Assembly: GCA_938075565.1 (NCBI GenBank)
Contig: CALJGU010000331.1
Coordinates: forward strand, 1-45,141
Origin: an uncultured Opitutales bacterium
GTDB lineage: Bacteria; Verrucomicrobiota; Verrucomicrobiia; Opitutales; UBA2995
Length of the DNA stretch: 45,141 nt
Reading direction: 5' to 3'
Shown: positions 16,101-35,818 of the stretch, in pieces
How the letters are laid out: each line of letters begins with the position of its first letter
Numbering within the stretch: the stretch's first letter is position 1
The notes under the pieces: model-generated
What the model was told of the DNA's origin: nothing
The model's input: the letters and a program-made list of their open reading frames with translations, nothing else
Databases searched by the model: none
Made by a program: the position numbers and the translations under genes

Positions 16101-17603
16101 CTACTTCTCATTCGTGGGCTTGTCGTCCCACATCTCACGCGTGTAGATCCAGTTTTTCGACTCGTCGATTTGCCAGGGCACCTCGGTTTCTGGAATCCAG
16201 GCTTTGTGTTCTGAGATGACCGGTGCGTATTGCGGGTCGGAGGCCACATTCTCCCATTCCCAGGGATCGTTGTCATGGTCGTAGAGCTCCTCGCTTCCGT
16301 CGCTGTATCGAATGTAGCGCCATCGGTCGGAGCGAATGGCATGGTTGCCTCGGCCCATGGTCATGAGGGCGGGTTGATCCCAGGTCGCGCTTGGGTCTTT
16401 TAGAAGCGGCAATAAACTACGGCCGTCCAGCTCCTCTTTCTGCGGCAGCCCACACAGGTCGACCAGAGTGGGATATATGTCGAGCAAACTCACTGGCTGT
16501 TCGCAAACTGTTCCTGCTTGGGTGACGCCAGGGGCAACGATAATGAACGGCACGTGGTTGGCCTTTTCCCAGAGGGTAAACTTCACGCAACTTTCCTTGT
16601 CGCCCAGATGGTAACCGTGATCGGAAAAGAGAACGATGATCGTATTGTCGGCCTCGCCTGTGGCATCGAGTTTGTCCAGCAGGCGACCCACCATTTGGTC
16701 AGCATAATCGGAGGCGGCCTGGTAGCTTTTCACAAAGGTGTGGAGACTTCCCGGATGCTGTTCAGGTTTCTCTAGCACATTATCGGTGATGAAAAATTCT
16801 TTGTTGGCCATGTTGCGCGCAATGGCTCCTACGTCGTCGAGATCGTTTTCCTGAACAGGAGGCATGATCAAACCTTGGTACGGATATCTCTCCCAAGTTG
16901 TTTGATCGGAGTAGAAGGGCATGTGTGGCCGGAATATACCAGCTGCCATGAAGACAGGTTTATCGGGCGGCTCATCCATGGCTTCCTCGATCCATTCAAC
17001 TGTATCCAGATCGATGATCTTTTGATCGTGTACCCCCCAGTCGAATACAGTCTTTGCCAACAAACCTTCCGTGTAACCATTGTGGTTGGTGTCCGGTGCA
17101 CGGGTGGCCAACATATCAAAAAACTTCTCAAAGGAAGGATTGTCCGCGCGGTCCTTCCCGGCATCGCCGTGGTGGAATATTTTCCCGGCCCCCTGGGTGG
17201 CATACCCATTGTCTTTAAAGTATTGAGGCAAAGTTTCTGCATCTGGCACCAATGTCCGCCAGCTGTCTTTGTTTCCGTAGACGCCCGTGGTGGATGGATG
17301 AAGGCCTGTGAGGATGGCCGTGCGCGAAGGATTGCATGCGGGGGAGACACAGTAAGCTTTATTGAAGAAAGTGCCTCTTGCGGCGAGACGCTGCAGATTG
17401 GGTGTCTGGATGGGATTGTTCGGATCAAAGAGGGTGGTCCAGTCGTTCATGTCATCTATGGCGATGAAAATAACATTGGGCTTCGACGAAATTCCAGGTG
17501 AGTTAGCGGTCACTGATTTCTCATTCGCGCACCCGGCTAGCAGGCCCAAGCCCGCTGCGAATAAGGCTAATACAAAGGTCTTCTTAAATGAATTTAAATA
17601 CAT
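16101..17603 (-). CDS. sulfatase, iduronate-2-sulfatase-like lipoprotein
   Basis: Type I sulfatase of 500 residues. A lipoprotein signal ends in LLAGC with Cys25 as lipidation site. The catalytic signature has Cys90 in CNPSR, which must be converted to formylglycine. Metal ligands Asp50-Asp51 (AIDDMNDW) and DHGYHLGDK further on are intact. The IDDMNDWTT start and GAGKIFHHGDAG motif place it near the iduronate-2-sulfatase branch (probably SulfAtlas S1_7, not verified). It is the last gene of the - strand sulfatase unit, 22 bases after the preceding sulfatase, and a close paralogue of the one at 19028-20605. It should remove sulfate from an algal or animal glycan at the cell envelope. Confidence 0.93.
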   Translation of the reverse strand: MYLNSFKKTFVLALFAAGLGLLAGCANEKSVTANSPGISSKPNVIFIAIDDMNDWTTLFDPNNPIQTPNLQRLAARGTFFNKAYCVSPACNPSRTAILTGLHPSTTGVYGNKDSWRTLVPDAETLPQYFKDNGYATQGAGKIFHHGDAGKDRADNPSFEKFFDMLATRAPDTNHNGYTEGLLAKTVFDWGVHDQKIIDLDTVEWIEEAMDEPPDKPVFMAAGIFRPHMPFYSDQTTWERYPYQGLIMPPVQENDLDDVGAIARNMANKEFFITDNVLEKPEQHPGSLHTFVKSYQAASDYADQMVGRLLDKLDATGEADNTIIVLFSDHGYHLGDKESCVKFTLWEKANHVPFIIVAPGVTQAGTVCEQPVSLLDIYPTLVDLCGLPQKEELDGRSLLPLLKDPSATWDQPALMTMGRGNHAIRSDRWRYIRYSDGSEELYDHDNDPWEWENVASDPQYAPVISEHKAWIPETEVPWQIDESKNWIYTREMWDDKPTNEK

Positions 17604-17625
17604 ACCTTATCTGCTCCCCAAATCG

Positions 17626-19002
17626 TTAATTTGTCTCAATCGCTGCCATAAAATGAATAAGCTCTTTTTCGAGCACTTTGACAACCTCAGGATAATCATG
17701 GGCCAGGTTCCAACGCTCGCCGATATCGGTCGCTAAATTGTAGAGCTCGTAATCGTTCGTTCCAAAGTCCATGACATACCGGTGCGGTTTTGCGGGTTCG
17801 CGACCGGGGAGTAAGAGTTTCCAGTTTCCTTTACGAATACCGATGCCCAAATAAGGAGTGTCCACTTGCCGTACCTGATCGTAGATAAACGTGTCACGAC
17901 CTTCCTCGCTCTTTCCAAAAAGAAGATCGCTCTGATCCTGGCCATCGATTGATTTATCTGAAGGTAGATTGGCGTCAGCTAGAGCAACGATAGTTGGTAG
18001 AAAATCAATAGTGGCCCAAAGGGCATTCGAAGTGCTTCCTGCTGGAACTTTACCCGGCCAGCGGACAATACAGGGGACGCGTGAGCCTCCTTCATAAGCG
18101 GAGCCCTTAGCGCCTCTTAGTGGCCCGGGGTCTCCCCAGAAAATGGTGCCATCCGGCATAAACCACGCAGGGTTGCAGCTGTTGGGTTTCCCGATGCGAC
18201 CCTGTTTAATGAGTGTGTATCGCGGTTGACTCCAGGGACCATTGTCGGAGGTAAAAATGACCATCGTATTTTCGCTCAATCCCAGAGCATCGAGTCGGTC
18301 CAGCAATCGTCCGGTTTCAAAATCGAATTCTTCAACTACGTCACCATACAACCCTCCCGCCGAGGTTCCTTTGAACTTAGGAGAGGCGTCAATATTGGTG
18401 TGCATCATCGTGTGCGCCAGATACAACAGGAAGGGTTGATCTGACTTCCTTTTGTTTTCCAAATAGTCGATAGCCTTATCAGTATACATTCGAGTCAGGC
18501 TTCCCATGTCGGTGGTTTCCCCCGCAGGCTCGTTGTTGTGATGAAATTTTACAGTGCCGCCGTCGTTCGCTCCAAGTGGGCCGAAGTAATAATCAAAACC
18601 CTGGGCATTCGGCATGCGATCCAGGATGGCCCTGCGATTCGAAACATCCCACTTGCCGATACAGGCGGTCTGATAGCCAGCCGGTTTCAACAACTCAGCA
18701 AAGGTGACCTCATCAGCCGGCATATCCCAACCTTTGCTTCGAATCGGATAACGCCCCGTCAACAGCGCGGAACGCGATGGACCACACACCGGTTGAGCGT
18801 AGAAGTCGGTATAGAGCGTCCCTTCCCGAGCCAGCTGATCCAGACGTGGCGTCTTGATCAGCTCATTGCCATAGCAGCCGACATCTCCATAGCCCTGGTC
18901 GTCGGTAAAGATGATTAGGATATTCGGTTGATCTGCAGTTGCCTGCATTGCACCGACCAAGACAAAAAGGATGCCTAGCAAAATCTGTTTATGAATTCTC
19001 AT
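17626..19002 (-). CDS. sulfatase, arylsulfatase A-like
   Basis: Type I sulfatase of 458 residues with a Sec signal (about 1-23). Metal-binding Asp34-Asp35 lies in IIFTDDQGYGD, and Cys73 in CGPSR is the formylglycine precursor. GKWDVS and FTSDNGPW supply other active-site Lys, Asp and Asn residues. The C-terminal part has the NDYELYNLATDIGERWNLA segment found in most secreted sulfatases of this group. It sits 25 bases after the upstream sulfatase and 22 before the next, so it belongs to the same transcript. Substrate is unknown. Confidence 0.93.
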   Translation of the reverse strand: MRIHKQILLGILFVLVGAMQATADQPNILIIFTDDQGYGDVGCYGNELIKTPRLDQLAREGTLYTDFYAQPVCGPSRSALLTGRYPIRSKGWDMPADEVTFAELLKPAGYQTACIGKWDVSNRRAILDRMPNAQGFDYYFGPLGANDGGTVKFHHNNEPAGETTDMGSLTRMYTDKAIDYLENKRKSDQPFLLYLAHTMMHTNIDASPKFKGTSAGGLYGDVVEEFDFETGRLLDRLDALGLSENTMVIFTSDNGPWSQPRYTLIKQGRIGKPNSCNPAWFMPDGTIFWGDPGPLRGAKGSAYEGGSRVPCIVRWPGKVPAGSTSNALWATIDFLPTIVALADANLPSDKSIDGQDQSDLLFGKSEEGRDTFIYDQVRQVDTPYLGIGIRKGNWKLLLPGREPAKPHRYVMDFGTNDYELYNLATDIGERWNLAHDYPEVVKVLEKELIHFMAAIETN

Positions 19003-19027
19003 TTCTTTTTTTTTATTGATTACAGAC

Positions 19028-20605
19028 TTAAGGACGTTTCGACAAATGTTCCTGCAATCCGATGCCCGGAGCAGGGGCGGGTCTGAGCAAGTGATCCATG
19101 GCTACGCCTTCTGCTTCGTTCTTTGGTAACCACTTCCGGTGTTCGGCAATGACACCCGCATAGCGCGGATCACCAGCCAGGTTGGTGTGCTCCCACGGAT
19201 CGTTGCGATGATCGTAGAGTTCTTCGTCACCCGTGTTGTAAGTTATATAACGCCAGCGTTCCGAGCGAACGGCATGATTGCCTGGTCCTTCATTCATGAG
19301 TGCAGGACGAACCCACTTGCCATCGGGATTTTTTAGGAGAGGCACCAGGCTCAGCCCGTCGTTGTCTGGCTTGGGTGGGAGACCAGCCAGCTCAAGTAGG
19401 GTGGGATATATGTCGATGAGCCCTACCGGCTGATCGATACGTGTACCCGGAATTGTGATACCAGGAGCGACGATGATGAATGGAACTCGATTGGCTTTTT
19501 CCCAGAGGGTAAATTTTACCGTGGTTTCCTTATCGCCTAAATGATAACCATGGTCGGACCAGAGCACGATGACGGTATTGTCTGCCTTGCCAGCTGCGTC
19601 GAGTTTGTCGAGTAGGCGCCCAACCATCTGGTCGGCGTAGTCCGCCGCAGCTTGGTAAGCTTGAACCATGCGTTCAAGGCTTCCCGGAGCTTCCCGTGGT
19701 TGAGCCGTGGTGTTGTCCCAAATCCAGTATTCCTTGCGAACCATACGTCGAGCCATCTCGCCCACATCGTCGAGATCACCCTCGGGCATGGGAGGCATGC
19801 GGACTGTTTCAAAAGGATAGCGGTCGAAGGTTTCCTGAGGTGCGTAGAACGGCAGGTGGGGATTAAAGATACCGGCGGCCAGAAACAGGGGTTTACCCTG
19901 CCCTGAGCTTGTCGAAGGGCCCATGAATTTCTCCATCTGGGCTTCCACATATTCACACATGTCGTCATCGATCATCTTTTGATCGTGAACGCCCCAATCG
20001 AATGCAATTTTCCCCAGCCGAGGATTTTCATCGGGTTTGTAGCCATTGTAGTTATTTCCGGCGCCAGGTCCGCGGATATCCAGTTTCTTAAAAAACTCCT
20101 GGAAGGCTGGCTTCCCCTTGGGTTCCTTACCTGTTGCTCCGTGATGAAAAATCTTACCCGCACCTCGCGTAGCATAACCACCGTTTAGCTCAAAGTACTT
20201 GGGGATCGTTACTGCATCCGGCATGATCTCCGCCCACGGAGTTCGGTTCCCATAAACACCAGAGGTCGTCGGACGATAGCCCGTCATGATCGCCGTTCGC
20301 GATGGATTGCATCCCGGTGACGCGCAATAGGCGCGGCTGAAAAAGGTGCCACGTGAAGCCAGTCTCTTGAGATTGGGTGTCTGGATCGGGTTTCCCTCAT
20401 CAAAGAGGGTCGTCCAATCGTTCATATCATCAATGGCGATGAAGAGAACATTGGGTCGATCCTTGGCGTGCAGCGATAGCGGAAAAAGAAAGCCCGCAAC
20501 GAGAGCCAAAAACATAGAGATAGCTTTCATAGCTTTGTTAGATGATTTTAGATTCATGTATGACCCGTCTCGCTGTACATTAAATTTCACTTTCCACCAG
20601 AACAT
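19028..20605 (-). CDS. sulfatase, iduronate-2-sulfatase-like
   Basis: Type I sulfatase of 525 residues from the ATG at 20605, which is preceded by a good AGGAAG ribosome site next to the stop of the glycosidase gene. Internal ATGs at 20557 and 20530 would give shorter, more typical signal peptides (MKAISMFLALVAGFLF...). The Cys of CNPSR is residue 99, or 83 from the second start. IDDMNDWTT, GAGKIFHHGATG and SDHGYHLGDK match the paralogue at 16101-17603. An 18-base dispersed repeat (19902-19919) is inserted in frame and adds a GPSTSSGQG-like stretch before KPLFLAAGIF that the paralogue lacks. The insertion lies in a surface loop region, so activity may be kept. Confidence 0.93.
   Translation of the reverse strand: MFWWKVKFNVQRDGSYMNLKSSNKAMKAISMFLALVAGFLFPLSLHAKDRPNVLFIAIDDMNDWTTLFDEGNPIQTPNLKRLASRGTFFSRAYCASPGCNPSRTAIMTGYRPTTSGVYGNRTPWAEIMPDAVTIPKYFELNGGYATRGAGKIFHHGATGKEPKGKPAFQEFFKKLDIRGPGAGNNYNGYKPDENPRLGKIAFDWGVHDQKMIDDDMCEYVEAQMEKFMGPSTSSGQGKPLFLAAGIFNPHLPFYAPQETFDRYPFETVRMPPMPEGDLDDVGEMARRMVRKEYWIWDNTTAQPREAPGSLERMVQAYQAAADYADQMVGRLLDKLDAAGKADNTVIVLWSDHGYHLGDKETTVKFTLWEKANRVPFIIVAPGITIPGTRIDQPVGLIDIYPTLLELAGLPPKPDNDGLSLVPLLKNPDGKWVRPALMNEGPGNHAVRSERWRYITYNTGDEELYDHRNDPWEHTNLAGDPRYAGVIAEHRKWLPKNEAEGVAMDHLLRPAPAPGIGLQEHLSKRP
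19902..19919. repeat. short dispersed repeat inserted in a sulfatase gene, copy 1
   Basis: CCTGAGCTTGTCGAAGGG is shared exactly with 24758-24775 and lies in frame inside the sulfatase coding region. It adds a PSTSSGQ peptide relative to the paralogous sulfatase. Repeats of this type occur intergenically and intragenically in many environmental bacterial genomes; I recall this from general knowledge, not from a search. Confidence 0.75.
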
Positions 20606-20613
20606 CCTACTTC

Positions 20614-21588
20614 CTATGGGGCTGTTTTTTTCAAATTTGAAAGATCAAGGATAGGAAGTTCCATTCGAGTGATATACCGACATCTGTCCTCGGGAAATTT
20701 CACCTTCATTCCCCAGGATACGCCGTTGTTGTTGACCCCGTTTCCAAAATTTTCCGGACAGTAAAGTCCGACTGTTTTGGGTGTCCAATCAGAGGTCTTT
20801 TCAAAGGTGAATCCATCTTCCGACCAGAAGGTACCGTACCCAAAACCGGCTACACCATTGCGGTGAACCCAGGTGGTGAAGGCGTGGCCAGGGAACACGG
20901 GACTCTTTTCATATTTCGTGTACGGTCCAAGAAGATTATCAGAAGTTGCAACCCCGATTTTTGTTTCGGATGGCTCGGCTCCAAACGGTCTCCCTTTATA
21001 ATAAAGAAACCACTCGTCGTCGAAGAAGATGATATTCGTATCGTCGATGTGAACGCCGTCCCACTCCTCTTTATTCCCACTGGGCCACAGGAGCTTTTTA
21101 CCCGATTTCTTCCAAGGGCCATCAGGCGTATCCGCGACGGCATAGCTGATGCCTTTCAGCTCTGCAGCGCTTCCGTAAGCGGTATAAAAGAGGTAGTACT
21201 TTCCGTCATGGGGAACGACGTAAGATGTAATGGCGGCCTTATCGTCGATATCTCCAGTTTCGCCACCAGAGATGGCGACGCCTTGGGCGGTCCATTGCAG
21301 ACCATCGGTGGAGGTAGCCAGCCGAATGTGACCTTCCCAGCCGTTGGTCACCTCCGGGTGTTGGGTGTACCATAGGTAGTATTTGCCGTTGTATTTGATA
21401 ATGTTTGAGGGATCGTGATGGTGTTTATCCGGCACATCTAGTACCTCCACATAGACCTCCCTATCCGTCACCTCGACCAACTCTCTGGGTATTTCGCCGG
21501 ACAATGCGGTCTTTTCATTGGGTGCGGTGCAACCGACCAGAACCATCACCATGGCAGAAAATGTAATCAATCGGGTTATTATCATCAT
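20614..21588 (-). CDS. GH117/GH43-like five-bladed beta-propeller glycosidase, lipoprotein
   Basis: Probable glycoside hydrolase of 324 residues with a lipoprotein signal ending LVGC (Cys20). Repeated blade motifs are seen: KYYLWYTQH, KYYLFYTAYG, EWFLYYKG, GYGTFWSEDG. Candidate catalytic acids are Asp in HHHDPSNI, Asp in DIDDKAAITSY and Asp in HIDDTNIIF. The GHAFTTWVHRNGVAGF segment resembles the His-bearing motif of GH117 neoagarooligosaccharide hydrolases, but GH43-type families share the fold. It lies among sulfatases on the same strand (34 bases after the upstream gene, 8 before the next), so it probably cleaves a sugar exposed after desulfation, perhaps from a sulfated galactan. The substrate is inference. 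Confidence 0.75.
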   Translation of the reverse strand: MMIITRLITFSAMVMVLVGCTAPNEKTALSGEIPRELVEVTDREVYVEVLDVPDKHHHDPSNIIKYNGKYYLWYTQHPEVTNGWEGHIRLATSTDGLQWTAQGVAISGGETGDIDDKAAITSYVVPHDGKYYLFYTAYGSAAELKGISYAVADTPDGPWKKSGKKLLWPSGNKEEWDGVHIDDTNIIFFDDEWFLYYKGRPFGAEPSETKIGVATSDNLLGPYTKYEKSPVFPGHAFTTWVHRNGVAGFGYGTFWSEDGFTFEKTSDWTPKTVGLYCPENFGNGVNNNGVSWGMKVKFPEDRCRYITRMELPILDLSNLKKTAP

Positions 21589-21622
21589 TTAAGCAACCAA
21601 GATTGGAGAACTGTTTTCGAGT

Positions 21623-23395
21623 CTATCTCCGGGTGACTTTCACATAGATCGCGCTACACAGTTCGTTTCCATCAATGTCTGAGAAGAGAGTACTGAGCTT
21701 CGTTTTTCCTGCACCCAGTTTCGCTGTAAAAGTGACATGGGTTGCGTCTTTGTTTGGAACTACGGTCTCCTGAAAACCGGCCACATGAATGTTGGCGAAG
21801 TGAATGGGCCGTTCACCGACAAATCCGGTAAAAGGTCTGGAGGCTGAAATTTCCTCACCTTGGAGCCCGGCACTTAAAGGGAGCTTTGATATTTCAGGCC
21901 AGCGACGCAGTTCAAATTCGTAAGTTCCGGCTTCGGCCACATCGATATCCCAATACCCCATGGTATCGGCAGCAACGAGGTTGGGTGGATTGTCGCAGTA
22001 ACCACCCTGCCAATCATTTGCATATAAAGTCAGGCTTCTTTCCTCATCGCTCCCCACGGTAATGTAACGGGGGGTATCGAAACGGAGTTTGGCTTCCGCA
22101 TACCATTGCTCGTAATGATCGCGCATGGCCTGAGCGACTTCCGGGAATTGTTTAATCACATTCTTATCCTGGTGCGGATCGTTGGCGATATTGTGGAGAG
22201 TATCGGCCCCGACGAGGCGCCACTTGTCCCAAAGCACAATGGCATGATCCCAGCGAACGGCTGAGGTATTGCGGTTGGAGTATTGAATCACAATTTTTCG
22301 ATCATCCAGTTTGGACTGTTTACCCTGAAACAATTTCGCGAGGCTGGTTCCGTTTACGTCACTGGATGGTTTTGGCAGATCGCAGAATTCAGCCAGTGTG
22401 GGAAGAATGTCCTGAACCTGGGTCAAGTCGTTTAGGTCTTTGCCGGACTTTAGACCATTGGGCCAGCGCCAGAAAGAGGCAACGCGGTGTCCACCGTCCA
22501 ACATGCCTCGCTTGAAACCTTGCATGCCTGCATTGTAGATTTCCGAGGCGGCTTTGCTCTGACTGCCATTGTCGTTCAGATAAATAAGTAAAGTGTTCTC
22601 CTTCAAACCTTCCTTCTTCAGAAAGGCGTCCAGTTTGCCCATATTTTCATCGATGTTGGCAATCATGCCGTAGAAATCGGCTGGGACTTCCACGCCGTTA
22701 TAGGTCCCCACATCTGCGTAGGGTTTTGAGTATTCTTCATCCACCCAGTTGGGCACATGAGGCGTATTGGTGGGAAGGTAGATGAAAAAGGGTTTGTCTG
22801 CCTCTTTCTGCTCTTTCATCCACGTCATGGCTTCACTGAAAAAGATATCGGTACAATAACCCTTATACTGCTTTTCAGTACCGTTGTGTCTCAACCAGGG
22901 ATCCCAATAGGAATTGCCAAAATGGTCGGCCAGCGAAGTGATGCCCCAGGCCATGTGATGCACCGTCTCCTGAAAGCCACGGTCTTGAGGACGGTGCGGG
23001 TAGCTATCACCCAGGTGCCATTTTCCAAAGTGTCCGGTAGCATAACCAGCCTCTGCAAAATACTCGGGCATCAACGGTATCCCATTCCCCATCATAGAGC
23101 GTCCCTGGCAAACAGCCGTCGCGCCGTTGCGCATGGCATCCATGCCGGTCATCAGCTGGCCACGCGTCGGCGTGCACATGGGAGCCACGTGAAAGTCGGT
23201 TAAGCGAATACTCTCGGCGTGCAGCTTGTCCAGGGCGGGCGTTTTCAACAACGGATTTCCATGACAGCTATAATCTCCATATCCCTGATCATCTGTCATA
23301 ATCAGGATGACGTTGGGACGGTTTGCCGCGAAGGCAGAGGAAAGCGCGAAACAAAGCGCAAGAATCAGAAGGTAACTGTGTTTGATATTCATCAT
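21623..23395 (-). CDS. sulfatase with C-terminal beta domain
   Basis: Type I sulfatase of 590 residues, the longest in the cluster. A Sec signal covers about 1-24. Asp35-Asp36 in IMTDDQGYGD bind metal, and Cys74 in CTPTR is the formylglycine precursor. GKWHLGDSYPHRPQDRGF and YLNDNGSQ carry further active-site residues. Residues about 455-590 form an extra beta-rich domain (from RYITVGSDEERSLTLYANDW) seen in a subset of arylsulfatases, possibly aiding substrate recognition. The gene is 19 bases downstream of the next sulfatase in the transcript. The substrate is unknown. Confidence 0.93.
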   Translation of the reverse strand: MMNIKHSYLLILALCFALSSAFAANRPNVILIMTDDQGYGDYSCHGNPLLKTPALDKLHAESIRLTDFHVAPMCTPTRGQLMTGMDAMRNGATAVCQGRSMMGNGIPLMPEYFAEAGYATGHFGKWHLGDSYPHRPQDRGFQETVHHMAWGITSLADHFGNSYWDPWLRHNGTEKQYKGYCTDIFFSEAMTWMKEQKEADKPFFIYLPTNTPHVPNWVDEEYSKPYADVGTYNGVEVPADFYGMIANIDENMGKLDAFLKKEGLKENTLLIYLNDNGSQSKAASEIYNAGMQGFKRGMLDGGHRVASFWRWPNGLKSGKDLNDLTQVQDILPTLAEFCDLPKPSSDVNGTSLAKLFQGKQSKLDDRKIVIQYSNRNTSAVRWDHAIVLWDKWRLVGADTLHNIANDPHQDKNVIKQFPEVAQAMRDHYEQWYAEAKLRFDTPRYITVGSDEERSLTLYANDWQGGYCDNPPNLVAADTMGYWDIDVAEAGTYEFELRRWPEISKLPLSAGLQGEEISASRPFTGFVGERPIHFANIHVAGFQETVVPNKDATHVTFTAKLGAGKTKLSTLFSDIDGNELCSAIYVKVTRR

Positions 23396-23414
23396 AGATT
23401 CATTTCATAAAGAT

Positions 23415-24851
23415 TTAATTAGATCGCTCCAACGCTTCGAAATTTTTCATCCCTAAATAGTCTCGGAGTTTGGGCAAGTTCCCAGGTTCGCTGATCAGAA
23501 AGTCTGAGTGGTCCAGCATTCCGGGAGGGCGGGTATTGGCAGCGAGCTCCTCAGCATGGTCATCGAGGATTGCTTTCAACTCTTTTGCCAGCTTCGGGCG
23601 TGCTTCGACCAGGTTCTTGGTTTCACCCAAATCGTTCTTCAAGTTGTAGAGTTCGAAGTCTCCATTGCGCCCGCGCACAAGCTTCCAGTTTCCACGGCGT
23701 ATGGCATCGATCTCGTAGAAGAGGATCTCGTGTGCTGATTTGGTTTGGGATTTCCCGAGCAGGGCATCCAGGGAGTTTTTCCCATCCGTGATCCTGTCGG
23801 TGGGTATCTCGGCACCAACCAATTTGGCCAGTGAGGGCAACACGTCAATGGATGCGGTTATCGCTTCAGTGACCTGGCCGGCAGGAATGGTTCCCGGCCA
23901 CCAGGTGAGCGTGGGCTCCCGCATATGCCCTTCGTATTTCGGACCGCCTTTGTTTCCGCGAAGCGGTCCTGCGCTCATGCCTCGAGCGGGACCATTGTCG
24001 GACGTAAAGATGAAGAGTGTATTCTCATCGATCCCCAGTTCCTCCAATGTATCCAGAATTCGTCCCACACTGGTATCGACTTCCTCAACAGTTGCTCGAT
24101 CAATGTCGCCATCCGCCTTTTTAGTTAGATCCAACCGTCCAAAGCGGGGCAGATGAACATAGGCATGGGGCATATAAAGAAAGAAGGGTTGGTCTTTGTT
24201 TTTCTTTATGAACTTAACCGCCTCATCGGTGATCACCTCACAGAGAAGCGATTGGTCGGCGCCATCACTTACATAGGCTACCACTTTGTTTTGTCTGAGG
24301 ACTGGAAGCGGGGTGTAGGTTTCTTTAGTGTGCCGATGACGATTCAGGTTAAAGGGCCACATGTCGTTCGAGTAGGGGATTCCAAAATATTCATCGAAGC
24401 CATTTTGTAAGGGGAGAAACTCGCGTTGATCGCCCAGGTGCCACTTGCCAAAAATGCCGGTTCTGTAACCCACCGATTTCATCATGTCTCCAACCGTGTA
24501 CTCCGTCGGATTGAGACCTCGTTTTTCATTGGGAAAGCAGACCGTACCATCCATTCCGATACGCGCGGCATAGGTCCCGGTCATCAAAGCAGCACGGGAC
24601 GGGGTGCAAGCAGTGTTGGAAGTATAATACTGAGTTAACCGGTTTCCTTCCTTGGCCATCCGGTCCAGGTGGGGTGTCTGGTTAACGGTATTACCAAACG
24701 GTCCGATGTCACCGTAGCCCATGTCATCAATGAACATGAGCACCACGTTTGGCTTGTCCTGAGCTTGTCGAAGGGGCCTGTCTGCTGAGAGGGAGGTTAA
24801 GTAGGTGAAAAGAAGTATTAGGAATACAGATAACGTTTTCTTAGAGCACAT
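23415..24851 (-). CDS. sulfatase, arylsulfatase A-like, with repeat insertion
   Basis: Type I sulfatase. From the ATG at 24851 it has 478 residues and begins with a clean signal peptide (MCSKKTLSVFLILLFTYLTS). An ATG at 24917 would overlap the upstream gene by 47 bases and bury the signal, so it is less likely. Cys82 in CTPSR is the formylglycine precursor and IDDMGYGD supplies metal ligands. GKWHLGDQREF and FTSDNGPARGM are intact. Just after the signal peptide the normal ADRPNVVL junction is split by about eight residues (LRQAQDKP) encoded by a copy of the dispersed repeat at 24758-24775. It is part of the eight-gene sulfatase unit. Confidence 0.92.
   Translation of the reverse strand: MCSKKTLSVFLILLFTYLTSLSADRPLRQAQDKPNVVLMFIDDMGYGDIGPFGNTVNQTPHLDRMAKEGNRLTQYYTSNTACTPSRAALMTGTYAARIGMDGTVCFPNEKRGLNPTEYTVGDMMKSVGYRTGIFGKWHLGDQREFLPLQNGFDEYFGIPYSNDMWPFNLNRHRHTKETYTPLPVLRQNKVVAYVSDGADQSLLCEVITDEAVKFIKKNKDQPFFLYMPHAYVHLPRFGRLDLTKKADGDIDRATVEEVDTSVGRILDTLEELGIDENTLFIFTSDNGPARGMSAGPLRGNKGGPKYEGHMREPTLTWWPGTIPAGQVTEAITASIDVLPSLAKLVGAEIPTDRITDGKNSLDALLGKSQTKSAHEILFYEIDAIRRGNWKLVRGRNGDFELYNLKNDLGETKNLVEARPKLAKELKAILDDHAEELAANTRPPGMLDHSDFLISEPGNLPKLRDYLGMKNFEALERSN
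24758..24775. repeat. short dispersed repeat inserted in a sulfatase gene, copy 2
   Basis: Second exact copy of CCTGAGCTTGTCGAAGGG, lying between the signal peptide and the first strand of the sulfatase. On the coding strand it is flanked by near-identical 8-base sequences, GACAGGCC and GACAAGCC, suggesting a target-site duplication. The insertion totals 24 bases, so the frame is kept. Confidence 0.75.
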
Positions 24852-24870
24852 GTGGTTAGTTAATAAGGTT

Positions 24871-26271
24871 CTAATTCCTTCGTCCCGTAAGATTATTTGT
24901 GGGGATTTCTGATTCATCCCAATCGAGGCGTTTAAAGTAGGCCGTCAGTTGAGCGTAGAGTTGTTTGGTCAGGGCTGGTTTTTCCTCAGCTAGATCATTA
25001 CTTTCTCCAATGTCCTCCACCAGGTCGTAGAGCAGAAGTTGATCGGAGTCGGCATCCTTGATGAGCTTGTGCCGCCCCTGAACGATCGTGAGGTCATGCC
25101 GGTTGTTGGGCTTGGTGTATTTGAAAACTAGGAAAGGGTCTTTGCGTTGGATCGGTTGTTCTCCATTGCTTTTCAAGTGGTCGAGTAGGGAGGCACCCTC
25201 GACGGTATCTGGAAGCTGACGGGTACCATCGATGATATCCATCGCAGTCGTGTAGATATCTGTGCCCACCACCGGTTCTGTGGAATGGGTGTTCGCTGGG
25301 ATTCCGGGGCCTCGCACGATAAAGGGGACACGAATACCGCCCTCGCTTACATGGTATTTGTGACTGCGTTGCGGGTAGGCTTTGTAATAACCACGCTCGT
25401 CCACAGGCTTGTGGAAATCGTGTTTGTCTTCGTAGCCGTTGTCGGCGGTGTAAATGACATAGGTATTTTCCCGGATTCCCAGTTCATCGATTTTGTCCAA
25501 AACGCTGCCCACGCCGGTATCGAGGTTCTCGTTCATGGCGGCCCATAAAGGACTGTTCTGGTAGGGAGTCGCTTTGTCGGCGTGTTGGGTCTTGTACTTC
25601 TCAATCGTTTCCGGGAGTGCCTGGTAGGTGAGGTGATTGGCGTAGTGAGAAATTTGCAGGAAAAAGGGCCGGTCTTTCTGGACCTGTTTCTCCATAAAGG
25701 CATTGGCCTTGCGAGTCAGGCTGAAGATGAACCTCGGATCTCTCGGGTGTGGAGAATCCGGGTTGTTGCGATTTTTTCCCCTCGTTGCATTGGGGTCGTG
25801 CCCATCACCATATTCGGCCACGTCATAACCGAGCTCTGAAGGCTCCCATTCGATGTGCCACTTGCCCATGTGCGCACATACGTAATCCGGGTTCGCCTGT
25901 TTCAGGCGATTGGCCAATGCGTCCTTTACGACCGCATCGACATTCTTGCCGATATTATCCGCTGCCCAGATTTGGAGACTGGAGGGGCTTCGCCCAAACT
26001 GGATGGCGTAACGCGTGGGTGAGCAGGTAGGCGCTGGGGCGTAAGCCTGCGAGAAGCGCATGCCTTCCGTTGCCAATTGCGCGAGCCTCGGTGTCTGGTA
26101 ATAAGTGCTGCCCGATCCGGGCATATCCGGATTCATGCGAGTGGAAAGCGCGTTCCAGCCCTGGTCATCGGCCAGAATAAGAATGATGTTGGGACTCTTC
26201 CCAAATGTAAGGCCCGTTGTACAAAGTAATGCCCAGAGGACAGCGAGTCGCAGAATATACCTCGTATCCAT
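24871..26271 (-). CDS. sulfatase (type I)
   Basis: Type I sulfatase of 466 residues with a Sec signal (about 1-24, MDTRYILRLAVLWALLCTTG). Asp35-Asp36 in ILADDQGWN bind metal, and Cys83 in CSPTR is the formylglycine precursor. HMGKWHIEWEP and YTADNGYEDK supply additional active-site positions. It is more divergent from the other cluster members, for example WN rather than YGD after the first metal site and an inserted STRMNPDMPGSGSTYY loop. It follows the DUF1552 gene by 12 bases, so the two are almost certainly co-transcribed. Its substrate is unknown. Confidence 0.92.
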   Translation of the reverse strand: MDTRYILRLAVLWALLCTTGLTFGKSPNIILILADDQGWNALSTRMNPDMPGSGSTYYQTPRLAQLATEGMRFSQAYAPAPTCSPTRYAIQFGRSPSSLQIWAADNIGKNVDAVVKDALANRLKQANPDYVCAHMGKWHIEWEPSELGYDVAEYGDGHDPNATRGKNRNNPDSPHPRDPRFIFSLTRKANAFMEKQVQKDRPFFLQISHYANHLTYQALPETIEKYKTQHADKATPYQNSPLWAAMNENLDTGVGSVLDKIDELGIRENTYVIYTADNGYEDKHDFHKPVDERGYYKAYPQRSHKYHVSEGGIRVPFIVRGPGIPANTHSTEPVVGTDIYTTAMDIIDGTRQLPDTVEGASLLDHLKSNGEQPIQRKDPFLVFKYTKPNNRHDLTIVQGRHKLIKDADSDQLLLYDLVEDIGESNDLAEEKPALTKQLYAQLTAYFKRLDWDESEIPTNNLTGRRN

Positions 26272-34264: not shown

Positions 34265-35818
34265 TCAGTTCCCAAAAAAATGTTTAAACGCAGCGGCAGC
34301 TTCCTTTTTGGTGATGAATCCGTTGTTGTTGCGGTCCATGGTACCGAAGCGCTGGCTTTGGTATTCCTTGCGCGACAGACGCCCATCCCCATTCTTGTCG
34401 TTCTCAAAGAGACGGGCCAGTCGTTCTTCGATACTGATCTTTGTGCTGCGTGCGCCTTGTTTGAGCTTACCTCCGACTTCGGCGTTGTTGCGGTCTTGGC
34501 GAATCCAGCGTGGATCTTCCATCTGATTGCTCCACGTGGCATAGATGGACTGGAGTTCTTTAAACTTTTCTGGATTCTTTTTAGACAAGTCCTTCTGCTC
34601 GCCAATATCCTTGGCTAGGTTAAAAAGCATCTCATCCTCGCCACGTGATTTTACCAACTTCCAGTCGCCGACGCGTGCTGCATGTTGGCCTCCGGAACGC
34701 CAGAAGAGTTGCTCGTGTGGTTTGCTTGAATTGGACCCATCAAGGTAGGGAATGATGTTCTTGCCGTCGATAAGATCGTCCTCGGCCAACTCGACACCGG
34801 CTACGGCCAAGGAAGTGGCCGTCACGTCAAAGCCCATAATGGGATAGTGATAGGTTTCGCCCGCTGGAATTTGCCCTGGCCATTGGGCCGCAAAAGGAAC
34901 GCGAATGCCGCCTTCCCACATCGTGCCCTTGGTTCCGCGAAGAGGATCGTTCCGCGAAGTGGTTTGAGGAGTCGGTCCACCATTGTCGCTATAGAAGAAG
35001 ACCAGGGTATTGTCTTCTTCGTCGTGCTTACGAACGGTGTCCATCACTCGGCCCATGGCATCATCCAAGGCCGACAACATACCCGCATAGGTTTTGCGGT
35101 TTTTATTCTTAATGGTTGGGAAACGGCTTTCGTACTTCTTGGTTGCTTCAAGGGGCAGGTGCACCGCGTTAAACGAAAAGAAAATGAAGAAGGGATCGTC
35201 AGAGCGATCGCTGGTCTGGTGGTCTTCGATGAATTTTACCGAGTCACGGGCAAAGGCATCAGTGAGGTATTCGGTTTCGTCGTGAAAAGGTTTCCCATTT
35301 TGATACATCTGATGATTCTGTCGGGGGCCGTTGGGATAAAAGGTGCGTGCTCCAGAGTGGAAACCGTAGGTGTAGTCGAAGCCCCGTTCGTGTGGACGTA
35401 GTCCCGGCTGAAAACCTACATGCCATTTTCCAACCCAGGCCGTGCGGTAGCCTACTTCTTTGAGTCGTTCTGCCAAGGTAGGCACATCGCGTGGAATACC
35501 AAAGTTCTTGGCCGAGTACTCTTCCGGGCCTGAGTTGTTCTCAAATCCAAATCGATGCTGATAGCGACCGCTGAGTAAACCTGCCCGCGAAGGCGAACAT
35601 ACCTGATGGTTCGCATACCCATCCGTAAATCTCACACCCTTCTCGGCAATCGAGTCGATATGTGGAGTGGGAATATCCTCGCAGCCGTTGAAACCGACAT
35701 CAGCGTAGCCCAGGTCATCGGCCAGGAAGATGATGATATTGGGGCGTTCCGCCGCAAAGAGGGTAGAGCAGAGAGCAAAGAGGATAGATACTAAAAGAAT
35801 GGAAAGTAATTTGCGCAT
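34265..35818 (-). CDS. sulfatase with C-terminal EF-hand pair
   Basis: Type I sulfatase of 517 residues. A Sec signal covers about 1-22. Asp34-Asp35 in FLADDLGYAD bind metal, and Cys74 in CSPSR is the formylglycine precursor. GKWHVGFQPG, YSDNGGP and GTKGTMWEGGIRVPF are intact. The C-terminus adds two EF-hand calcium loops, at 474-485 (DKNGDGRLSRKE) and 495-506 (DRNNNGFITKKE). It stands apart from the main sulfatase unit, between two RND pump genes on the same strand, with gaps of 123 and 187 bases. Its link to efflux is not obvious, and it may have its own promoter. Confidence 0.93.
   Translation of the reverse strand: MRKLLSILLVSILFALCSTLFAAERPNIIIFLADDLGYADVGFNGCEDIPTPHIDSIAEKGVRFTDGYANHQVCSPSRAGLLSGRYQHRFGFENNSGPEEYSAKNFGIPRDVPTLAERLKEVGYRTAWVGKWHVGFQPGLRPHERGFDYTYGFHSGARTFYPNGPRQNHQMYQNGKPFHDETEYLTDAFARDSVKFIEDHQTSDRSDDPFFIFFSFNAVHLPLEATKKYESRFPTIKNKNRKTYAGMLSALDDAMGRVMDTVRKHDEEDNTLVFFYSDNGGPTPQTTSRNDPLRGTKGTMWEGGIRVPFAAQWPGQIPAGETYHYPIMGFDVTATSLAVAGVELAEDDLIDGKNIIPYLDGSNSSKPHEQLFWRSGGQHAARVGDWKLVKSRGEDEMLFNLAKDIGEQKDLSKKNPEKFKELQSIYATWSNQMEDPRWIRQDRNNAEVGGKLKQGARSTKISIEERLARLFENDKNGDGRLSRKEYQSQRFGTMDRNNNGFITKKEAAAAFKHFFGN

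Follow-up and report, generated by a model that had tools for sequence, protein, structure and literature searches.

A short repeat inserted in frame in sulfatase genes of an uncultured Opitutales bacterium, a candidate palindromic element found in many bacterial phyla

INTRODUCTION

Passages of Di Nocera et al. (2013, PMC3733652) describe CGTC repetitive extragenic palindromic elements (CGTC REPs) as palindromes of several phyla that are tagged at one end, lie mostly between genes with some copies inside them, and have no dedicated transposase. In those passages, the tag is an unpaired CGTC, TGTC, or CCTC, the stem is 8 to 9 bp long with A-T at its first two places, and the three-base tail is mostly CCA; head-to-head pairs predominate, and tail-to-tail pairs are rare. 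Rickettsia palindromic elements (RPEs), as portrayed in parts of two further accounts (PMC10969869, PMC2229807), are about 105 to 150 bp long and lie in frame in unrelated protein genes, with a conserved peptide for each element. A passage on CGTC repeats says that RPE-4 and RPE-6 of R. conorii correspond to them (PMC3733652). Here, we analyze a repeat, CCTGAGCTTGTCGAAGGG, present in two sulfatase genes on contig CALJGU010000331.1 of assembly GCA_938075565.1, from an uncultured Opitutales bacterium of the phylum Verrucomicrobiota; the window is the whole stretch of 45,141 nucleotides. The repeat is probably, though by no means certainly, the core of a very short, nonautonomous, REP-like palindromic element whose copies within genes survive insertion.

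RESULTS

Two in-frame insertions in sulfatase genes

The 18-mer CCTGAGCTTGTCGAAGGG occurs exactly at 19902-19919 and 24758-24775, as originally predicted, in two genes whose open reading frames (ORFs) both match the Pfam family Sulfatase, and it is read in a different frame in each. When up to three mismatches were allowed, the window held three sites compared with a shuffle mean of 0.04; the third (17674-17691, three mismatches) reads as an ordinary sulfatase C-terminus. The features are as follows.

19028 to 20605, minus strand: sulfatase gene with copy A, 525 amino acids, PF00884 and SGSH_C (from ORF and Pfam)
19891 to 19924, no strand assigned: stretch holding the 24 nt without counterpart in the C311 syntenic homologue (from DNA alignment; exact edges ambiguous)
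19896 to 19901, plus strand: 5' flank of copy A, CCCTGC, with the YTGY-type tag CTGC at its end (from sequence and tag class)
19902 to 19919, plus strand: copy A, CCTGAGCTTGTCGAAGGG, read on the minus strand as PSTSSG
23415 to 24917, minus strand: sulfatase gene with copy B, 500 amino acids, PF00884 (from ORF and Pfam)
24752 to 24757, plus strand: 5' flank of copy B, GCTTGT, with the YTGY-type tag TTGT at its end (from sequence and tag class)
24758 to 24775, plus strand: copy B, CCTGAGCTTGTCGAAGGG, read on the minus strand as LRQAQ
24759 to 24782, no strand assigned: 24-nt insertion missing in the C341 syntenic homologue (from DNA alignment; ends can slide 4 nt)

A protein search led to two small contigs of the same assembly, C311 and C341, with another sulfatase cluster that lacks both copies. 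This cluster is syntenic with 16 to 26 kb of the window and 78 to 88% identical to it (83 to 88% over the repeat-bearing genes), and it may either be paralogous or come from a related strain in the bin. Against C341, copy B is a single clean 24-nt insertion in 1,874 aligned bases at 86.7% identity, and the neighboring 2,781 bases align with C311 without a gap at 88.2%. The copy A gene is likewise exactly 24 nt longer than its C311 homologue (1,427 aligned bases, 82.8%, with the first 150 bases unaligned), the aligner splitting the 24 nt into gaps of 16, 7, and 1 around the repeat. Apart from these gains, the two genes show no indels where they align. Elsewhere, window positions 16117-18936 are 77.8% identical to C311, with 14 gaps of 1 to 13 bases unrelated to the repeat.

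The added peptides are GPSTSSGQ for copy A (EKFM-GPSTSSGQ-GKPLFL) and RPLRQAQD for copy B (LSAD-RPLRQAQD-KPNVV). The copy B insert lies N-terminal to the Pfam domain and past an apparent signal peptide. The original prediction that each copy adds residues missing from paralogues holds for the syntenic homologues, at 24 nt each, and in part for more distant paralogues, whose lengths vary. Of 14 comparisons with distant repeat-free paralogues, 3 give the copy A gene eight extra residues and 2 give it none, and in the alignment of the copy A sulfatase with the best solved structure there is no gap at the repeat. From these variable differences and the gapless structure alignment, both insertion sites are length-variable. 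Other relatives that lack the repeat are shorter here by 0 to 12 residues, a spread indicating that the linkers vary in length anyway; for copy B and a further site described below (C21), many alignments stop before the insert. Repeat-free orthologues with the same extra residues, the evidence to the contrary named with the original prediction, are absent among the syntenic homologues and present in part among distant ones.

Most of the window proteins that were scanned are sulfatases (7 of 10, window 16101-26271 and 34265-35818). Two of the sulfatase ORFs overlap at 24871-24917, which suggests that one start was called too early.

Recurrence in the sulfatases of the same genome

The genome containing the window (G000; 4.6 Mb, 91% complete) is very rich in sulfatases, with 150 scored PF00884 matches among 261 candidates. 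It holds two copies of the exact 17-mer and 17 sites at up to three mismatches, versus 3 in a reversed control. The sequence CTGAGCNNGTCGAA has eight sites there, compared with 2 in the reversed control, and four of the eight read as in-frame inserts, all of them in sulfatases: copies A and B and two more, C21 and C64. The inserts of A and C64 (STSSGQ) precede a P-F/L-F strand, and those of B and C21 (RQAQD) precede PN[IV]V. Relative to its nearest sulfatases, C64 has exactly eight extra residues in 7 of 13 comparisons. The other four CTGAGCNNGTCGAA sites (C69, C87, C146, and C319) read in frame as ordinary coding sequence and were discarded; C87 does lie in a sulfatase gene, but without consistent extra residues.

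In a scan of the sulfatases, 135 ORFs from the 150 loci passed the extraction rule, and copy A was added from the window. At up to three mismatches, these 135 ORFs yielded B, C21, and C64, as against one reversed-control site, which had two mismatches; the 15 dropped loci held one such site, C87. In a FastTree phylogeny built with the insert peptides removed, C21 was the 74th nearest sequence to B and B the 88th nearest to C21, and C64 was the 82nd nearest to A and A the 135th nearest to C64, with low deep supports. Judging from this tree, the insert-carrying sulfatases are not sisters.

By our own arithmetic, sulfatases make up roughly 5 to 9% of the genome, so four of four in-frame inserts in them exceeds chance, a pattern that was noticed after the fact and that can be explained by the tolerance of redundant genes. 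What is new here is the set of four sites that read as in-frame inserts: each lies in a sulfatase gene, the genes are not sisters, and the sites fall at two homologous positions. This pattern suggests repeated insertion, or survival, in the tolerant, length-variable loops of a redundant family.

Dispersal across genomes, plasmids, and phages

Within the phylum, 27 of 288 genomes hold the exact 17-mer, with 1 to 23 copies per repeat-bearing genome and 112 copies in all, including the two in the window's genome; the reversed control gave 1. Rarity in its own genome, offered with the original prediction as a reason for doubt, is thus literally what was found, yet the family lies mainly in other genomes. 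Scans of a genome-contig collection and of a viral-contig collection each returned at least 120 stretches with the repeat. By our own arithmetic, chance alone would give about 8 matches to the 18-mer in 257 billion bases if composition were uniform. The hosts among the matches listed belong to many phyla and include sphingomonads, Microbacterium, Bacteroidetes, Chloroflexi, Armatimonadetes, Eremiobacterota, Acidobacteria, Spirochaetes (Treponema), and Patescibacteria. A large number of these records are metagenome-assembled genomes (MAGs), and the repeat is also present in isolates and complete plasmids.

Two sites on Sphingobium plasmids were aligned directly across five regions, with four plasmid records whose regions are identical over 24.9 kb counted as one. 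At the first site, between etfA and etfB, a head-to-head pair of copies makes up an insertion of about 110 bp that one of the five regions carries; the second site, an intergenic one, likewise has its pair in one of five.

The net gain in length differs among phage families, as measured within a fixed window. In two portal families, it is most often 15 nt (10 of 15 relatives in one and 52 of 79 in the other), and in another family 45 nt (38 of 80); a Mu-like transposase gave 40 nt against both of its two relatives. Because of these differences, we rejected a unit fixed at 24 bp. The linker that holds the repeat in one phage portal (L276) has, in the related L504, a different repetitive insert (AGTCAGTAGTCAGG-like), and the site seems to accept different inserts.

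The repeat was also met in larger arrangements. Positions 1970-2621 of one Bacteroidetes contig (L130) contain six exact copies spaced 126 to 127 bases apart, a tandem array whose unit carries the repeat. In genome G172 (L036, L765-L769), the repeat lies within a longer conserved 5' context, caggctcaaggc or a close variant of it, mostly followed by gcggcacccgcg, and this form is apparently a longer composite element. A 19-mer match in the tail fibers of N4-like Pseudomonas phages was set aside as chance, as it reads as part of a continuous tail-fiber segment that we judge to be native.

Location and reading frames

Copies in genome contigs are mostly outside genes: 36 of 137 lie in ORFs, versus 80% of random positions. 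The depletion is weaker in viral contigs (66 of 126, versus 76%), and for the phylum, a laxer ORF rule applied without a control places 26 of 80 copies in ORFs. The originally predicted mobile element that spreads into coding DNA without breaking it is borne out as to real in-frame insertions of a repeat that is dispersed over many genomes and not as to location, since most genome-contig copies are outside ORFs.

Five of the six frames of the core are free of stops, and the 102 copies within ORFs use all five, reading as PELVEG (25), LSLSK (14), PFDKLR (10), LRQAQ (31), and PSTSSG (22). The sixth frame never appears because it contains TGA. The use of every open frame indicates that the peptide is not what spreads, in agreement with the argument first drawn from the different frames of the two window copies that the peptide is not selected.

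We chose 20 host proteins with copies inside their ORFs and scanned them. Pfam families matched 16 of the 20, including MutL, MetH, DNA polymerase A, and three phage portals. Copies lie inside the Pfam domains of MutL, MetH, the phage portals, and others. In alignments to PDB structures, the MetH copy occupies extra sequence that separates two aligned segments, and the copy in a solute-binding protein falls directly before an aligned segment; the MutL alignment has no gap at the repeat, and the DNA polymerase match is weak.

Anatomy of the repeat

Among 335 cores in 240 loci, 281 have the exact form and 37 have CT replacing TT in the loop; the 240 loci were picked by the exact form, which inflates its share. 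On the 5' side of the CCTGAGC strand, the flanks are conserved and carry a short tag; their most frequent form is CCGTTCGC (30 of 137 genome flanks and 20 of 129 viral flanks). The commonest tag outside the window is GTTC, in 40 of 137 genome copies. YTGY tags, which both window copies carry, prevail in the window's phylum, at 41 of 75 copies, compared with 15 of 155 copies from the genome contigs.

The flanks covary, as expected of the two arms of a hairpin. In the genome contigs, the register that continues the inner stem has an excess of 88 over composition across its first seven pairs, with the next register at 36. In the phylum set, two registers stand out, at 36 and 27, both of them with the tag left as a bulge, and all others are at or below 5. 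Covariation in the wider set backs a few more inner-stem pairs. In the window, a stem of 5 bp is predicted for copy A and a weaker one for copy B, neither copy is paired with another repeat, and no Rfam family covers them at gathering thresholds.

From 497 cores, we counted 170 close pairs: 92 head to head with the tags outside, 44 tail to tail, and 34 in the same direction.

Comparison with known systems

Our comparison with the CGTC REPs was made by description, using passages of PMC3733652. As described there, these families resemble the present repeat in being short and palindromic, in occurring in several phyla with a tag at one end, and in being mostly intergenic with some copies in genes. 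Of 137 genome copies, 26 have CGTC, TGTC, or CCTC at the place of the tag, as do 11 of 129 viral copies; for three 4-mers, we estimate about 2 of 137 by chance. The repeat departs from the description in its window tags (CTGC and TTGT), in its interrupted stem of about 5 bp plus internal mismatches, and in its tail, as none of the 26 copies with CGTC-type tags has CCA. Head-to-head pairs are the commonest here, yet tail-to-tail pairs, at 44 of 170, are not rare. The form GTCATCCTGAGC-NNN-GTCGAAGGATC contains the core and is putatively CGTC-REP-like. It occurs in 12 stretches of viral contigs and suggests a continuum with the CGTC REPs.

As with the RPEs, copies are inserted in frame in unrelated conserved genes with empty homologues (sulfatases, Pfam domains, and phage portals), but the inserts in the window are only 24 bp, and five frames are used across the family. 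Tagged short hairpins and head-to-head pairs are shared with GTAG REPs and the systems of REP-associated tyrosine transposases (RAYTs), in which the tag is GTAG or GGAG and copies flank a RAYT gene; unlike in those systems, GTAG is not among the commonest tags listed, and the RAYT loci that were fetched are free of the repeat (see below). A miniature inverted-repeat transposable element (MITE) would have a target-site duplication and the terminal inverted repeats of an autonomous element; no 8-bp duplication signal and no autonomous partner were found. Text searches of the literature with pieces of 11 to 16 bases of the repeat gave no paper describing it as a bacterial repeat among the titles listed.

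DISCUSSION

Insertion, dispersal, a tag, covarying flanks, head-to-head pairing, and use in several frames are all observed for this repeat, and we favor, as the probable reading, the core of a very short REP-like element. An enzyme acting in trans would copy and insert the element, most plausibly a hairpin-reading HUH/Y1 enzyme. Insertions that shift the frame or cause damage would be lost, and those with a net length that is a multiple of three would survive because five of the six core frames are free of stops. The in-frame copies are then probably survivors. Redundant genes probably offer tolerant, length-variable sites, as for the four in-frame sites in the sulfatases of this genome. This reading assigns no role to the added peptides.

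Several results weigh against the REP-like reading. The target-site duplication originally proposed at copy B is there in letters, the flanks being GACAGGCC and GACAAGCC and the empty allele having a single GACAAGCC, but there is no comparable duplication at copy A and no 8-bp duplication signal across 211 isolated copies elsewhere. One 4-bp register is enriched among those copies (17 versus 5) and fits part of a CCGT-tagged form. The net length of the insert, 24 nt in the window, is 15, about 40, or 45 nt elsewhere. For the window copies, the DNA folds predicted are weak ones, at -3.9 kcal/mol (z, -1.0) for copy A and -1.8 kcal/mol (z, +1.05) for copy B. C21 and C64 are sites with two mismatches, and the reversed control gave one two-mismatch site in the same 135 sulfatases.

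The search for a mover weighs on the same side. No linked transposase or autonomous partner was found, RAYT/Y1_Tnp being the class looked at, and the associated transposase raised in the original prediction did not materialize: we fetched 30 Y1_Tnp loci in 11 genomes, some of the loci cut short by contig ends, and none carries the repeat. A single loose match at one RAYT locus (L068) is a different sequence. Outside the 30 loci, one Y1_Tnp match was noticed about 1.3 kb from a copy (G172:C1:894259-894519, with the copy at 892903); this proximity may be chance. By hand counts, Y1_Tnp (RAYT-type) genes are present in 27 of 27 repeat-bearing genomes and in 186 of 261 others, but among genomes of at least 4 Mb their presence is not clearly higher (20 of 20 versus 69 of 77).

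Among the 30 RAYT loci, eight were examined, and these carry other inverted repeats. In three phylum genomes (L042, L062, and L043; about 1340-1370 and 1900-1935), near-perfect palindromes of the form CCTAGGG...CCCTAGG flank RAYT-type genes and are placed as terminal repeats would be.

Among the other explanations, a single insertion at each position, inherited through duplication or gene conversion among sulfatase paralogues, would fit the four in-frame copies at two homologous positions with matching frames (B and C21 as RQAQD, A and C64 as STSSGQ). The carriers, though, are distant in the tree, nearer scanned sulfatases lack the repeat, and the nearest homologues on C311 and C341 are empty, which together make common descent unlikely, even if low deep supports and the possibility of a very short gene-conversion tract limit the argument from the tree. 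A conserved protein-binding or signal site under selection (for instance, in nucleoid organization, uptake, or termination), with the genic copies incidental, is about equally improbable: 17 to 18 letters shared by many phyla, mostly intergenic copies in genome contigs, and paired arms are what such a site might show, but its distribution is patchy (27 of 288 genomes, with 1 to 23 copies each), empty sites are clean, and in-frame copies lie in unrelated coding genes.

We give a similarly low likelihood to a transposase-free origin of new copies, in which replication would switch templates where short stretches are complementary. In its favor, GACAAGCC is present in both empty alleles and shares GACAAGC with the repeat, all 30 fetched RAYT loci are free of copies, and insert lengths are variable. 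Codons for DKP are presumably common in sulfatases at these places, and the shared letters may be coincidence; template switching alone also leaves one conserved core across many phyla unexplained. That the repeat is an adaptor, primer, assembly contaminant, or chance match is highly improbable. Many records are MAGs and single matches can be chance, as in the phage tail fibers, but isolates and complete plasmids carry the repeat, it has loop variants and covarying flanks, and one reversed-control match compares with 112, so that artifact as a general explanation is already refuted.

A bolder extension of the REP-like reading is doubtful, if a little less so than common descent, a selected site, or template switching: a pan-bacterial micro-element of about 24 bp that crosses phyla through a mobilizer reading the tagged hairpin, that repeatedly hits, in this genome, the same two loops of different sulfatases, and that is a recurrent source of eight-residue insertions in a fast-diversifying family.

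The same 17 to 18 letters recur in many phyla and within conserved enzymes. If they belong to one mobile element, its mover would be a missing piece among the small bacterial elements known so far, and its copies would be a directly readable record of tolerated in-frame insertions. The peptides PELVEG, LRQAQ, and PSTSSG in protein annotations would then be recognizable as possibly element derived.

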